Source: Mucilaginibacter sp. (GTDB lineage: Bacteria; Bacteroidota; Bacteroidia; Sphingobacteriales; Sphingobacteriaceae). From it: a stretch of DNA of 64,000 nt. Made by a program: the position numbers and the translations under genes. The stretch lies in the NCBI RefSeq assembly GCF_028288205.1, contig NZ_JAQBOD010000018.1, positions 1 through 64,000 of the forward strand, given 5' to 3'. The notes under the pieces are model-generated. The model saw nothing but the letters and a program-made list of their open reading frames with translations. It was not told the origin of the DNA and ran no database searches. Shown one piece after another: positions 27,455 through 52,840 of the stretch; positions within the stretch are counted from its first letter, which is position 1, and each line of letters starts with the position of its first letter.

Positions 27455-27577
27455 TAAAGATTGGTTATTAGAGATTAAAGATTAGTTGACTGTCTGTCGA
27501 AAAATACAAAAGGCTAACCGAACAGTTAGCCTTTTGTATTATGCAAATCCTAATAATAACTGATCTCTAATCTTTTA
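27455..27577. repeat. GAGATTAAAGATTAG-type flanking repeats
   Basis: TTATTAGAGATTAAAGATTAG at about 27466-27486 has a loose inverted counterpart, CTGATCTCTAATCTTTTAAG, at about 27558-27578. They enclose the terminator at 27503-27540. This is low-complexity intergenic DNA of a type repeated in such genomes. Confidence 0.5.
27503..27540. terminator. Bidirectional intrinsic terminator
   Basis: A perfect 16-bp stem, AATACAAAAGGCTAAC / GTTAGCCTTTTGTATT, with loop CGAACA. AT pairs at both ends can serve as T-runs for either strand. It separates the moxR transcript from the convergent NTF2-like gene. It is flanked by TTAGAGATTAAAGATTAG-type repeats on both sides. Confidence 0.85.
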
Positions 27578-46009: not shown

Positions 46010-46717
46010 ATGAACTGTTTAATAGTAGATGACGAACCCCTCGCCCTTGATTTAATGGAAGATAATATTAAACAGATACCATTTTTAAAACTGGTTGGTG
46101 CTTGCCGCAATGCATTCGAAGCAATGAATGTTCTGAACGAGCAATCTGTTGACCTGATATTTTTAGACATACAAATGCCGGGAATAAGCGGCCTGGATTT
46201 TTTACGCTCATTAAAAAATCAGCCGCTTGCTATATTGGTTACCGCTTACGAAGAACATGCTGTTGATAGCTTTGACCTTGATGTGGTAGATTATCTCTTA
46301 AAGCCGGTATCATTTCCACGGTTTTTAAAAGCGGTGCAAAGGGCACATAATATGTTTAAGATGATGGAGCAGGTTAATAAAGCATCCCTAAAAACAGACG
46401 ATCATGTGTTTGTTAACGCAAATTATTCGCTGGTTAAAGTAATGCTGGATGAAGTAGCCTTTATAGAAGGGTTAAAAGATTATGTGCGTATAAACATGAT
46501 ATCAGGTAAAATAATAATTACCCGTATGGGTTTAAAAAATATAGAAGAAAAGCTAAATCCTATAAAATTTATGCGGATACACAAATCCTATATAATTGCA
46601 TTGGATAAGATCGATTCTATCCAAAAAGCCCAGCTAATAATTAAAGACCGCGAAATACCTATCGGGGATGGCTACCGGCAACTGTTGCAAAGCTATATTA
46701 GTAACAGGAATTTATAA
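46010..46717 (+). CDS. LytTR-type response regulator (orphan)
   Basis: 235 residues. The receiver domain starts MNCLIVDDEPLALDLMEDNI, with the phospho-acceptor Asp53 in LIFLDIQMPG and the Lys of DYLLKPVSF. The LytTR DNA-binding domain follows (SLVKVMLDEVAFIEGLKDYVRINMISGKII … MRIHKSYIIALDKIDSI). No sensor kinase is adjacent. It diverges from the TonB receptor operon and precedes a DUF4382 gene; it may regulate one of these, but this is inference. Confidence 0.93.
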   Translation: MNCLIVDDEPLALDLMEDNIKQIPFLKLVGACRNAFEAMNVLNEQSVDLIFLDIQMPGISGLDFLRSLKNQPLAILVTAYEEHAVDSFDLDVVDYLLKPVSFPRFLKAVQRAHNMFKMMEQVNKASLKTDDHVFVNANYSLVKVMLDEVAFIEGLKDYVRINMISGKIIITRMGLKNIEEKLNPIKFMRIHKSYIIALDKIDSIQKAQLIIKDREIPIGDGYRQLLQSYISNRNL

Positions 46718-48876: not shown

Positions 48877-50004
48877 TTATTCAACAGGTACCAGTTTCAA
48901 GCATACTGGTGCGCCAATTTCAATAATTGAAGGTGTTAAGGTTAGCTTGCCTGTAGTTTTATCTCTTTTAAAGATGAGGATATTGTTCGAATCTTGATTA
49001 GCAACTAACAGAAAATTACCTGCCGGTTCTATAATAAAGTTTCGCGGGGCCTTGCCTACTTTATTGCGGGCAACAAAGGTAAGCTCGCCGTTTGCCTGGT
49101 TAATGCTGTAAGTTACAATTTCATTTGCTGCACCGCGGTTGGTTGCATATAAAAACAAACCATCGGGCGAAATATGGATATCAGCCGCGCCAACCGCGCC
49201 GGTAAAGCCGTCGGCAAGCATGGTAACGGTTTGGAAAGCAGTTAACTTGCCATCATCATATTTATAAGCCGTAACTGCCGAACCCATTTCCTGTACATTA
49301 TATAAAAATTTACCATTAGGCGAAAACTCCAAATGGCGCGGGCCATTGCCCGGTATAGCACTAACAAAAGCAGGGGATGCCGGGGTTAACGGCGGGTTTT
49401 TTGATGCTTTGTAACGATAGATATTTATTTTATCGGTACCAAGGTCTGTATATAGTAAATATTTGCCATCAGGCGATAGCATGGCGGTATGTACATGCGG
49501 GCCCTCTTGTCTTTTTTTGTCTATGCTACTGCCTTCGTCCTGTATTTTTTGCGACATGGGGCCCAATGAGCCATCTTTAGCTACGGGGTAAACCGTTAAG
49601 CTGCCTCCGGCATAATTGGCTGTAAATACATTTTTTTGATCCTTATCAATTGCTATATAAGCAGGGCTGCCATGGCCGGGTTGTTGGTTTATACTATCCA
49701 GCTTACCGGTTTTAACATCAAATTTAAAAGCGCCAACACTGCCCTGGCCTTTTCCTTCGTTCGCCGAGTAAACAAATTTATAATCTTTAGATACTGCTAA
49801 GTACGAAGGATTATCAATCCCGTCAATTTCACTCAGATAAGCCACTTTTCCTGTTTCTGCATAAAACCGGTAAACATATATGCCCTTGCTACCATTGCGG
49901 CGGGTGTAGGTCCCTATCAGCAGATCATAAGTTTTAGGGGTGGTTTTCTGCGCAAAACAAAACACAGGCGATACCAGCATTAGTATGATTAGTAATTTCT
50001 TCAT
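48877..50004 (-). CDS. Exported lactonase-family beta-propeller (6-phosphogluconolactonase-like)
   Basis: 375 residues from the ATG at 50004, giving a signal peptide (LLIILMLVSPVFCFAQ). The frame stays open upstream to 50049. The sequence reads as a seven-bladed propeller of the lactonase family: LLIGTYTRRNGSKGIYVYRF, GPHVHTAMLSPDGKYLLYTDLG, GNGPRHLEFSPNGKFLYNVQE, ADIHISPDGLFLYATNRG, PRNFIIEPAGNFLLVANQDSNNI. Cytosolic Pgl relatives open 6-phosphogluconolactone; the exported form suggests a different sugar lactone. Substrate unknown. Confidence 0.87.
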   Translation of the reverse strand: MKKLLIILMLVSPVFCFAQKTTPKTYDLLIGTYTRRNGSKGIYVYRFYAETGKVAYLSEIDGIDNPSYLAVSKDYKFVYSANEGKGQGSVGAFKFDVKTGKLDSINQQPGHGSPAYIAIDKDQKNVFTANYAGGSLTVYPVAKDGSLGPMSQKIQDEGSSIDKKRQEGPHVHTAMLSPDGKYLLYTDLGTDKINIYRYKASKNPPLTPASPAFVSAIPGNGPRHLEFSPNGKFLYNVQEMGSAVTAYKYDDGKLTAFQTVTMLADGFTGAVGAADIHISPDGLFLYATNRGAANEIVTYSINQANGELTFVARNKVGKAPRNFIIEPAGNFLLVANQDSNNILIFKRDKTTGKLTLTPSIIEIGAPVCLKLVPVE

Positions 50005-50122
50005 GATAATTTTAATTGATTTACTGTCGCAAGGTAATAAATTCGGCAAAAAAACGGGAGTATCAAAAGTATAATTAATGATACATGCAGGGGAATGTTG
50101 TTAGCCTGAACACAAATCCCAT

Positions 50123-50156
50123 TGTCAATTGCGATGAGATACGAGGAGAGCTATCT
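50123..50156. repeat. Dispersed repeat half-element (GTCAATTGCGATGAG)
   Basis: TGTCAATTGCGATGAGATACGAGGAG resembles the left arm of the inverted repeat at 23671-23770, found between the lactonase promoter and the abi gene 3' end. Confidence 0.45.
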
Positions 50157-50186
50157 ACTATAGATTAAAAAATACAAAGTAATAAT

Positions 50187-51167
50187 TTACTTTACCCAAC
50201 CCAAGTGTACAATTATTCTTTTAAAAAATGATCCTTCGATTTTCCATAACTCCTCCTGTTTCCAATTATTTGTAAAACCCATAGCCAATGGATCAACGTT
50301 GGGATATTTATTTAATAGGCTTATGAATTTGTTTTTAAATTTAGTTTTCGGATTAACTATTTTTGAGAGGTAAACAATCATTGATAGGATATAATATGTT
50401 CTATTGTTAATATTCCTAATTGAACCATTATTGGAATTGATTGTGTGATATACAGATAGCAACGTTTTTTGTGGATTATTGGGAATAACAGGTGATATTC
50501 TTAATGCTTTATTCCATAATCGTGAATGATGTGCGCATACGTTACGAATGTAAGCGATACTATGAATCCATGATTCAAAAGTTGAATCGTCTAATCCAAA
50601 ATGATGAGAAATCTCTCTTTTTGCACGTCCGGGTTTTAGATTTTGATATAAATTTGATAATACCCCAAATGATGAGACTTCTAATATTATCCAACTTGGT
50701 GGGAGTGGATTATTATATTTCACCTTGAATGAAGCTATAAAATCTTCTTTACTTCTATCATATTCTTCTGTTATTCTATTTAGTGTACTGCGAAATTTAA
50801 CATTATTTGAAAACAATGCAGCATCACTAAACCAAAATGCACCATATTCATGAGATAATACATAAATCATTTTAGCCCGTATCGCTATTTCTATTTTTTC
50901 TATCTCAGCTGTTACCAGTTTTCTTAGTTCGCGGTCAAAACAATAAAGATTAAAAGAGGAATTAAAAGAAGAGTTTGGTTTAAAAACATGAGTCGACTTA
51001 GGCATTTGAAGCATTGGATACCAATACCCACTCAATCTATAATAGCTAATAGTTTCTAGTAAAAAAAGACATTTAGAGTCCCTCTCAATTATTAAACCTC
51101 TGTTTTTAAGTTGTTGAAGTTGATCGTTAAAAGTTAAAGGGGGCTTTGAATACGGAACTCTCGGCAT
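50187..51167 (-). CDS. Abi_2-family (AbiD/AbiF-like) HEPN abortive-infection protein
   Basis: 326 residues from the ATG at 51167. The frame stays open upstream, but those codons run through a terminator-like hairpin. The N-terminus KPPLTFNDQLQQLKNRGLII is typical of Abi_2 proteins, followed by YYRLSGYWYP and REL(R)KLVTAEIEKIEIAIRAKM. The HEPN motif Rx4H is RNVCAHHSRLWN at 208-213, the usual RNase signature. Abi_2 proteins are phage-defence toxins related in fold to Cas13 HEPN domains. The composition is AT-rich compared with the neighbours. A leader RNA and promoter precede it. Inference: RNA-controlled toxin. Confidence 0.9.
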   Translation of the reverse strand: MPRVPYSKPPLTFNDQLQQLKNRGLIIERDSKCLFLLETISYYRLSGYWYPMLQMPKSTHVFKPNSSFNSSFNLYCFDRELRKLVTAEIEKIEIAIRAKMIYVLSHEYGAFWFSDAALFSNNVKFRSTLNRITEEYDRSKEDFIASFKVKYNNPLPPSWIILEVSSFGVLSNLYQNLKPGRAKREISHHFGLDDSTFESWIHSIAYIRNVCAHHSRLWNKALRISPVIPNNPQKTLLSVYHTINSNNGSIRNINNRTYYILSMIVYLSKIVNPKTKFKNKFISLLNKYPNVDPLAMGFTNNWKQEELWKIEGSFFKRIIVHLGWVK

Positions 51168-51179
51168 AAAATTCAGGTC

Positions 51180-51234
51180 AAAAAAAAGGCTCACCCTGAG
51201 CGCGCTGATCTGACGAGAAGCGGGGTGAGCATGT
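51180..51234 (-). ncRNA. Candidate abi leader/antitoxin RNA (abiF-type hairpin)
   Basis: On the minus strand GCTCACCC (51230-51223) pairs with GGGTGAGC (51196-51189), eight perfect pairs. A 26-base loop holds a small CGCT / AGCG inner stem. A T8 run (51187-51180) comes directly after. The predicted start is about six bases after the -7 element, giving an RNA of about 55 nt that ends 13 bases before the abi ATG. A conserved RNA motif upstream of abiF genes has been described from comparative surveys; this may be a member, unverified here. Confidence 0.6.
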
Positions 51235-51239
51235 TGATG

Positions 51240-51269
51240 CAAAGGTAATTACATAATTTGAAATAACAA
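51240..51269 (-). promoter_or_regulatory. Promoter of the abi leader RNA
   Basis: Read on the minus strand: TTG at 51269-51267, then 19 bases, then TACCTTTG at 51247-51240, a perfect TAnnTTTG -7 element at the expected spacing. The 19-base spacer is exactly one arm of the inverted repeat at 51248-51291. Transcription should start near 51234. Confidence 0.7.
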
Positions 51270-51291
51270 GTCTTATTTCAAATTATGTAAT
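51248..51291. promoter_or_regulatory. Perfect 19-bp inverted repeat over the abi promoter
   Basis: The arm at 51248-51266 (ATTACATAATTTGAAATAA) and the arm at 51273-51291 are exact reverse complements, separated by six bases. One arm fills the promoter spacer and the loop holds the -33 TTG. It looks like an operator for a dimeric DNA-binding protein. No regulator gene is nearby, so control could come from a phage- or host-encoded protein. Confidence 0.65.
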
Positions 51292-51361
51292 ATATAATTA
51301 AATTGACATTGCAAATCTTGGCCAATTAATTAATAGATTTTCATTGAATGTATAAATAAGC

Positions 51362-52840
51362 CTATTTTATCAAATGCTTTAACTGGATAACTTCCTTTTC
51401 GTCCAAAAAGCGCCAGCGGCCGCGTGGCAGGTCCTTCTTGGTAAGATTGGCATATACCACCCTGTCCAGCTTTACTACATCATAGCCTAAGTGCTCAAAC
51501 ATACGGCGCACTACACGGTTCTTTCCGCTGTGTATCTGTATACCTACTTCTCTTTTTGAGCCGCCTGCAACGTAAGCTACCGAGTCTGGTTTTATTAAAC
51601 CATCTTCCAGTTCTACACCAAACTGCAGTTTGTTCAGGTCGCCTTGTGTTAAAGCTTTATTTAGCTCAACCTGGTAAAGTTTGGTAATGTTGCTGCGCGG
51701 ATGTGAAAGCTTATCAGCCAGGTCGCCATCATTGGTCATTAACAATAAACCGGTTGTATTGCGGTCCAAACGCCCAATTGGATATATCCGCTCGCGACTG
51801 GCTTTTTCAACCAGGTGCATTACTGTGCGGCGTTCCTGCGGGTCATCAGTAGTAGTTATATAATCTTTTGGTTTATTTAATAATACATAAACGTTTTTTT
51901 CGCGCTTAAGCGTTTCGCCGTTGTATTTTATCTCGTCTTTAAACGGGTCAACCTTTAAACCCAGCTCATTTACCACCTCGCCGTTTACAGATACTACACC
52001 TGCCGCAATCAGCTCATCGGCCTTACGGCGGGAGCATATACCTGCATTTGCTATATAACGGTTAAGGCGGATAAGGCCCTCATCTTCTGCTTTTTTAGTT
52101 GGTTTCTTGGCGCGTAATGTTTTTACCGGCGCGTCACGGTCGCGGGTTATTTTATCATAAACCGGCTTATCGCCGGCTTTGCGGAAAGGTTTATCGCCCT
52201 CGTGTTTCTTAAAGTCGCCGGTTTTTGATTTTGCACCCGAAACTGCAAATTTCCTGTCGCCGGTTGATTCGCCACCGAAGCTTCTTTTTGGCTTGTCACC
52301 AAAATCTGCACCGGCTGGTTTTCTATTCCTTGGTGAAGATTCATTTCCAAAGCTTCTTTTAGGGCGCTCATCATCGCCGCCTGCTTGCGGGCGGCCGGAA
52401 TATGGTTTGTTACGCGGTAAAAAGTTTTTCTTGTTGCCACCTGATGATTCACCGTCAAAGCTTCTTTTAGGGCGATCATCATTGCTTCCCGTTGGTCTGC
52501 CTGAATATGGTTTATTACGCGGGGTAAAGCTTTTCTTTTCGCCGGTTGATTCGCCGCCAAAGCTTCTTTTTGGCTTTTCGTCGTCTCCGCCGGTTGGGCG
52601 GCCAGAATATGGCTTGCGTGGTCCAAAGCTTTTCTTTTCGCTTCCTGATGAGAAAGAGCTACGCTCGGCCGCAGGGCCGCTTGAGTATCTTTTTTTAGAA
52701 CTATCGTTGTTGGGTCTGTCCGTGCTTTTTGAAGAGTTTCCACGGGTGGAAGAAGATCGTTTATTATCGCCGCCTTTTGAGGGTCCGTTTGATCTGCCAT
52801 TCCGGTCGTCGCGACCGTTTGCTGGTCTTTTAAATACCAT
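51362..52840 (-). CDS. rluB: Pseudouridine synthase (RluB/RsuA family) with long disordered N-terminus
   Basis: 492 residues. The first 250 are low-complexity Ser/Gly/Lys/Arg, with units of about 30 residues around KPYSGRPTGG…KPKRSFGGES repeated four to five times. An S4 domain follows (GLIRLNRYIANAGICSRRKADELIAAG, near 255-300) and the catalytic domain with Asp359 in IGRLDRNTTGLLLMTNDG. It modifies a uridine in 23S rRNA. The long tail is an extra RNA-binding-like extension common in this phylum. Single gene. Confidence 0.93.
   Translation of the reverse strand: MVFKRPANGRDDRNGRSNGPSKGGDNKRSSSTRGNSSKSTDRPNNDSSKKRYSSGPAAERSSFSSGSEKKSFGPRKPYSGRPTGGDDEKPKRSFGGESTGEKKSFTPRNKPYSGRPTGSNDDRPKRSFDGESSGGNKKNFLPRNKPYSGRPQAGGDDERPKRSFGNESSPRNRKPAGADFGDKPKRSFGGESTGDRKFAVSGAKSKTGDFKKHEGDKPFRKAGDKPVYDKITRDRDAPVKTLRAKKPTKKAEDEGLIRLNRYIANAGICSRRKADELIAAGVVSVNGEVVNELGLKVDPFKDEIKYNGETLKREKNVYVLLNKPKDYITTTDDPQERRTVMHLVEKASRERIYPIGRLDRNTTGLLLMTNDGDLADKLSHPRSNITKLYQVELNKALTQGDLNKLQFGVELEDGLIKPDSVAYVAGGSKREVGIQIHSGKNRVVRRMFEHLGYDVVKLDRVVYANLTKKDLPRGRWRFLDEKEVIQLKHLIK
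52290..52650 (-). repeat. Coding tandem repeats in the rluB N-terminus
   Basis: DNA units of roughly 90 bases encode KPYSGRPTGG, DDEKPKRSFGGES and SGEKK-type segments, repeated with changes. They are prone to copy-number variation. Confidence 0.75.

Follow-up and report, generated by a model that had tools for sequence, protein, structure and literature searches.

A perfect inverted repeat over the predicted promoter of an AbiF-AbiFr-type module in Mucilaginibacter

An abiF-type gene of C. difficile is toxic, and its leader RNA works as a terminator-coupled attenuator and as an antitoxin in trans, according to excerpts of the original report (PMC12373285). The same excerpts state that the RNA, RCd22, binds and neutralizes AbiF (PMC12373285). 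An AbiF that binds one RNA per monomer and is inhibited via bases in a single-stranded bulge is described in excerpts of a review (PMC12737573). The PbAbiF-AbiFr pair of Prevotellaceae (8VZ6; Zilberzwige-Tal et al. 2025), as far as these excerpts describe it (PMC12373285, PMC12737573), consists of an Abi_2 HEPN protein and its cognate RNA. The locus described here lies in a stretch of 64,000 nucleotides of Mucilaginibacter sp. (GCF_028288205.1, contig NZ_JAQBOD010000018.1), hereafter called the window. Like the AbiF-RCd22 locus, it has an RNA, a terminator, and a toxin gene under one promoter. However, RCd22 has two abiF motifs (RF03085) and a full-length transcript of 132 nt (excerpts of PMC12373285), whereas the RNA here has one motif, undetected by RF03085, and a predicted length of 52-56 nt. 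The protein is homologous to PbAbiF. For this pair, a single-stranded bulge of the RNA is described as inhibiting the RNase, and the RNA here likewise has a conserved unpaired 3′ stretch. Unlike the locus described here, PbAbiF-AbiFr has no promoter palindrome mentioned in the excerpts of the two reports (PMC12373285, PMC12737573).

The toxin gene (50187-51167, minus strand, ATG at 51167) encodes an AbiF/AbiD (Abi_2) HEPN protein of 326 amino acids, as judged by Pfam, PADLOC, and structure homology. The Pfam Abi_2 profile matched with an E-value of 1.5e-57 (195 bits against a curated cut-off of 25.6) and the PADLOC AbiD profile with 3.7e-75, while residues 3-309 are homologous to the solved AbiF structure 8VZ6 (E 9e-74). 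The HEPN R-x4-H motif is RNVCAH (residues 208-213), with R208 and H213 invariant in nine sequences. A TTG start at 51242, given in the list of open reading frames, falls inside the -7 element of the promoter. Plasmids (409 records) and phages (46 records) carry Abi_2 relatives, each of them below 60% identity. A single-sequence search revealed no viral relatives of the Abi protein, and an alignment-based search revealed four viral loci, the best at 51% (L081, in the same record as L073, see below). Since the Abi_2 gene is homologous to 8VZ6 and a conserved covarying RNA lies ahead of it, the module is, on its sequence, very probably of a known kind, in which an AbiF toxin is paired with an RNA antitoxin of AbiFr type.

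The AbiFr-type RNA, the predicted antitoxin, was located at 51184-51235 on the minus strand by a covariance model and by covariation. It has an outer stem (51230-51223/51196-51189), an inner stem (51222-51219/51206-51203), and an unpaired 3′ stretch (51202-51197, CGCUCA). RF03085 likewise has an outer stem, an inner stem, and six unpaired 3′-side nucleotides between them, with GCUCA at that place, while its sequence and stem lengths differ from those of the RNA here. An intrinsic terminator was predicted at 51180-51201 (minus strand), with a 5-bp hairpin (51201-51189) or the larger RNA stem having the same end base; behind the hairpin come a C and T8 (51187-51180), and 12 nt further lies the abi start codon. 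A conserved structured RNA with a terminator-like end was thus found between the promoter and the Abi_2 gene. The original prediction had the promoter drive the Abi gene directly; the predicted first product is instead the short RNA (51235-51184), followed by T8 and then by the gene. It had also stated that no regulator gene is nearby. This is right for the adjacent protein genes, which are a synthase gene and abi, but incomplete, as the covarying AbiFr-type RNA lies directly downstream of the promoter.

The same RNA precedes the Abi gene in 7/7 relatives of the genome_contigs set having upstream DNA (L014-L020); an eighth, L021, is cut upstream and stands outside this count. The 26 distinct class-1 copies taken from host genomes, irrespective of Abi, have 100% of their cells paired, and 23 double changes were found against 5.4 in shuffles. 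The single-sequence fold of 51184-51235 is modest (z -2.1). The covariance model, built from eight sequences, was used at a threshold of E ≤ 0.001 and matched 18/395 genomes of the class, 32/400 of the order, and 37/395 of the phylum; these samples overlap, and the counts take in three weak matches (L041-L043) judged to be false. RF03085 gave no match in 50000-52000 of the window at E ≤ 1, and its best hit over the whole genome (19.5 bits, cut-off 37) lies elsewhere than this RNA. RF03085 was also undetected in 17 further loci (L012, L014-L020, L029, L036, L037, L054, L056, L060, L086, L147, and L150). Tandem-repeat antitoxin RNA, the criterion of type III toxin-antitoxin systems, is absent, the window having a single copy of the motif. 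A search of 50,697 named-phage records with the 52-nt RNA returned nine records with E-values of 1-4, which is a weak test given the short query. The small RNA behind the promoter is the toxin's likely antitoxin and likely its main regulator.

A second RNA class (AACAGTACACGCCACGCTACCC type and variants) was seen in roughly 20/400 genomes of the order, a count for which not all loci were fetched (L054-L058, L060-L072, and others). It often precedes a more distant Abi gene, and the scanned loci L054, L056, and L060 have no RF03085 match. At another distant Abi locus, L010, the leader (1429-1465) was detected by RF03085 with 57.4 bits. This class of bacteria thus has two or more classes of leader side by side.

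The promoter consists of a -33 element, TTG (51267-51269, minus strand), and a -7 element, TACCTTTG (51240-51247, minus strand), which has the form TAnnTTTG and was called from its sequence and its conservation in relatives. The promoter consensus of Bacteroidota is TTG-N19-TAnnTTTG. In 16 distinct leaders, TAnnTTTG lies 11-13 nt ahead of the RNA start, the distance being exactly 12 nt in 14/16, and 8/16 have TTG at exactly 19-nt spacing. This comparison counted only leaders having TAnnTTTG, namely 21 rows from 32 loci with an Abi E-value ≤ 1e-100; the remaining 11 loci are L049, L073 (cut by the locus end), and nine leaders of a different family (f84). The relatives support the promoter call.

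A perfect inverted repeat (51248-51291), a feature without strand, overlaps this promoter. Its arms (51248-51266 and 51273-51291) are 19 nt each and 100% complementary, with a loop of 6 nt (51267-51272). At loops of 3-30 nt, no other perfect inverted repeat of the 64-kb window is as long. (The runner-up, at 27503-27540, has 16-bp arms and a 6-nt loop.) Dinucleotide shuffling of the 194-nt stretch 51168-51361 (2000 rounds, loops of 3-20 nt) gave a longest arm of 13, reached once; the dyad symmetry over the promoter thus exceeds chance. On the minus strand, the order is the arm 51291-51273, the loop GACTTG (51272-51267), the arm 51266-51248, and TACCTTTG (51247-51240), so the second arm is exactly the 19-nt promoter spacer. 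It had been claimed from the sequence that one complete arm equals the spacer and that the loop holds the -33 TTG (51269-51267), and both claims proved exact. Also supported are the overlap of the dyad with a promoter of Bacteroidota type, conserved in relatives, and the claim that a protein bound there would block the polymerase.

Is the palindrome itself conserved? The part common to relatives (51255-51284, minus strand) comprises inner 12-bp arms (51255-51266 and 51273-51284), which are kept in L014 and L023, and the half-sites TTTGA (51282-51278) and TCAAA (51261-51257) occur at the same places in L015 and L024. L014, the nearest relative, encodes a protein of 87% identity, and its dyad has perfect arms of 12 bp, or 21 nt at 81% with mismatches allowed. 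Its DNA similarity to the window runs from the inner arm inward, with none upstream, and ends near the 3′ end of the gene. Between the window and L014, 30/31 sites match in the core and spacer arms and 3/6 in the loop (Fisher p = 0.0096, by a test picked after the alignment was seen and leaving out the outer left arm, with 3/7 matches). The dyad of L015, whose protein is 63% identical, is a different one of 10 bp, but it shares the centre (-34) and the half-sites TTTGA-N16-TCAAA. None of 400 of the L015 shuffles was equally symmetric, but correction for 73 leaders removes the significance of this symmetry (pooled tail 0.0014).

Taken together, the leaders show no enrichment of palindromes. Among 75 non-redundant leaders, 5 reached p < 0.05 against about 3.75 expected, and without the window and L014 the count is 3/73. 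Viral leaders were part of the tested set, as was every RNA class fetched up to that point, and 23 loci were left out: 15 near-duplicate leaders (one being the window's own copy), seven without an accepted RNA position (L010, with an RF03085-type RNA that was not located; L041-L043, weak and judged false; and L082-L084), and L073, whose leader is too short. With the centre fixed, 9/73 other leaders reach 8/15 pairs against 5.2 expected from shuffles. The fixed-centre symmetry looked raised against unshuffled DNA (-130 to -80), as 11/75 leaders have at least 8 pairs against a background of 2.8%. This was discounted because the leaders are A+T-rich and because, measured against shuffles, the 73 other leaders give 9 observed and 5.2 expected. 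The palindrome as a general feature of AbiF promoters was rejected on the 5/75 count.

The original prediction named many copies unrelated to promoters as the mark of a plain dispersed repeat. Over the 3.9-Mb genome, this repeat is the only place that has the arm at 0 mismatches; 1 mismatch gave no place, 2 gave one, and 3 gave eight, while the reversed-arm control gave 5 and 8 per strand. A dispersed (REP-like) palindromic repeat was thus ruled out by the uniqueness of the arm at 0-1 mismatch. For the core dyad, the genome offers a single further site at 3 mismatches (reversed control 5) and no second site within 2 mismatches. In 149 genomes of the genus, allowing up to 2 mismatches, the core dyad matched at 40 places and its reversed pattern at 10, the abi loci G000 and G142 not being counted. 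Among the 20/40 places fetched, 7 are inside an ORF of at least 100 amino acids, and the others are beside unrelated genes; since the places are mixed, no coherent set was seen. The genus dyads are of the TTTGAAATAA-N6-TTATTTCAAA type, and some are common to two species, as in L166/L167 (inside a gene) and L168/L169 (between genes). An unlinked regulon was rejected on the 20 of 40 genus places, while the excess over the reversed pattern remains. Control by an unlinked factor, as had been proposed, is possible, but neither a second genome site within 2 mismatches nor a coherent set in these 20/40 genus places speaks for it. No cognate regulator gene is adjacent, the neighbours being a pseudouridine synthase gene and abi. 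The nearest regulator-like gene noticed, for a putative LytTR-type response regulator, lies about 4.5 kb away (window 46010-46717).

Two readings of the palindrome have to be weighed first. It may act as a lineage-specific protein-binding operator, a reading that is favored tentatively and stays somewhat short of an even chance. Its close rival, which is on the unlikely side, is a quasi-palindrome perfected by mutation, in which template switching during replication copied the spacer arm upstream and the left arm has no role. The absence of dyad enrichment in leaders and of a second genome site fits this rival, as does the short dyad of L014, whose 12-bp perfect arms and poorly matching outer left arm suggest that the 19 bp of the window extend an imperfect dyad. 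Against it, the inner left arm is kept 12/12 between the window and L014 while the loop is not, and the L015 dyad has the same centre and half-sites in an otherwise different sequence. It was from this balance, conservation in L014 and the L015 dyad on one side and the lack of leader enrichment and of a second site on the other, that the operator was rated above the quasi-palindrome. Two further points weigh against the operator: a perfect palindrome of 44 bp exceeds usual operators in length and perfection, and the conserved right arm doubles as promoter spacer. The outer 7 bp of the left arm, which L014 lacks, may be a mutational extension also in the case that the core serves as an operator. 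The palindrome is probably selected in one clade, and it probably adds no more than a local layer of control.

The genomic setting bears on two weaker rivals. Upstream of abi, on the same minus strand, lies a gene (51362-52840) for an RNA pseudouridine synthase with an S4 domain, presumably RluB-like. The N-terminal part of the synthase (window 52150-52840) has a long low-complexity stretch with repeated PKRSFGGES-like units. Downstream lies a putative lactonase-like gene (48877-50049, minus strand), named from its appearance. The synthase is present in 58/60 relatives searched, 29 of which were fetched; in 23/29 a lactonase-like homologue lies downstream of the synthase, and an Abi gene lies there in 0/29. 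The module of L014, on the other hand, is flanked by glycosyltransferase-like genes rather than by the synthase and lactonase genes. These arrangements are read most simply as an insertion of the module in this lineage, with the palindrome core travelling along, as L014 shows. The best explanation of the repeat is that a mobile AbiF-AbiFr module has its upstream edge and its promoter region here.

Might the repeat act in RNA instead? Transcripts reading out of the synthase gene would carry a stem of 19 bp, which would shield or terminate them on the 3′ side or would insulate the promoter of abi. The stretch 51248-51291 does fold into a single 19-bp hairpin (-19.1 kcal/mol and z -6.9 as RNA, -14.6 and z -7.8 as DNA), and many of the 29 relatives have, by eye, G+C-rich terminator-like hairpins after the synthase, while none precedes the palindrome in the window. 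However, the stem is A+T-rich with no T-run behind it on the minus strand, the terminator scan called 51201-51189 and not this hairpin, and L014 carries the dyad between unrelated genes. This rival is rather improbable. Slightly less probable still is a dyad at the end of a mobile cassette, recognized by a recombinase or transposase instead of a regulator. The similarity between the window and L014, beginning at the inner arm and stopping near the 3′ end of the gene in unrelated contexts, points that way, as does the absence of abi at this place in the 29 fetched relatives. Nevertheless, no second copy of the dyad and no bracketing repeat was found around the module, where only weak other pairs were seen (window 50000-51420; L014 1700-3150). 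In addition, abi is the only gene seen in the segment common to the window and L014, and the lack of general dyad enrichment in leaders also speaks against a cassette end.

Toxin-antitoxin modules often autoregulate, and this general knowledge is what speaks for the last rival, in which the palindrome is bound by AbiF, as proposed earlier, or by AbiF together with its RNA, and the abi promoter is thereby repressed. It found no support and is highly improbable, since the Abi_2/AbiD/AbiF protein here is homologous to an AbiF that excerpts of its studies describe as an RNA-binding HEPN protein (PMC12373285, PMC12737573) and AbiFr promoters overall are not dyad-enriched. A literature search found no test of autoregulation at a native abiF promoter, and the trans experiment of PMC12373285, in the excerpts available, used an inducible promoter.

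To return to the operator, it would be placed in the module as follows. One conserved promoter is predicted to give a short structured RNA with a terminator-like end, with the toxin gene 12 nt on. Judging from the relatives, most transcripts would stop at the RNA end and supply an excess of RNA antitoxin, while a few would read through into the gene for the HEPN RNase AbiF. The RNA would bind AbiF and keep it silent until the balance is disturbed by phage infection. The palindrome over the -33 box would be the operator for a dimeric repressor encoded elsewhere, which would shut off the antitoxin and the toxin together. This whole explanation, the module plus the operator, is put forward as the best one at hand, with slightly less than even confidence.

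It was also found that AbiFr-type RNAs occur without an Abi_2 match. A search of IMG/VR viral contigs with the RNA gave 17 class-1 records and 4 class-2 records. In 20/21 of these viral records, which may be fragments, the whole record lacks an Abi_2 match; the exception, L073, carries the full module. The solitary viral copies are L074-L080, L144-L150, L186, and L187 in class 1 and L151-L154 in class 2. For six of the 17 class-1 viral copies, ARAGORN placed tRNA genes within about 35 nt, on one side or on both (L075, L076, L079, L080, L145, and L187, of which L079 and L080 are near-identical). In the several copies exactly between tRNA genes, tRNA processing would release the RNA. In L147, the RNA starts 5 nt past a major tail protein gene. 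In L146, it lies just ahead of a putative lysozyme-like ORF, judged from appearance. The 13 distinct copies used of 16 solitary class-1 viral copies (L080 equals L079, and L186 and L187 came later) have 98.9% of cells paired and 23 double changes against 5.7 in shuffles; from this covariation, the solitary viral copies look like maintained RNAs.

Solitary copies are not peculiar to viruses, as 17/82 host loci with a located RNA, a set not made non-redundant, have no Abi-profile match downstream (L034, L040, L052, L055, L057, L062, L063, L068, L085, L096, L098-L103, and L111). The span searched was 85 nt for L111 and about 1.5 kb for the others, and 16/17 were also viewed by eye. Some of these copies adjoin HipA-like or other defence-like genes, as judged from appearance. 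The pseudo-ToxI of phage phiTE (PMC3475682) and the Racr solitary CRISPR repeats (PMC10651486), the nearest precedents, are likewise reported as cases in which a phage carries a defence RNA without the protein; the solitary viral AbiFr differs as a candidate mimic of the AbiF antitoxin, several copies being beside or between phage tRNA genes. I recognized no paper on solitary AbiFr in phages in a literature search that did not cover Zilberzwige-Tal et al. 2025 (Cell). It is an evenly balanced possibility that phages, probably of Bacteroidota, carry these copies as RNA decoy antitoxins that would disarm AbiF.

These results show that AbiFr-type RNAs missed by the public abiF model are spread over Bacteroidota. 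For the module described here, the palindrome becomes a defined question: which protein, if any, sits on the AbiF-AbiFr promoter, and would a block of this promoter deprive the cell of the antitoxin RNA first? Cas13 is thought to descend from AbiF, an RNA-guarded toxin family. The solitary viral AbiFr, if true, would be an RNA-based counter-defence against such a toxin and is a directly testable candidate.
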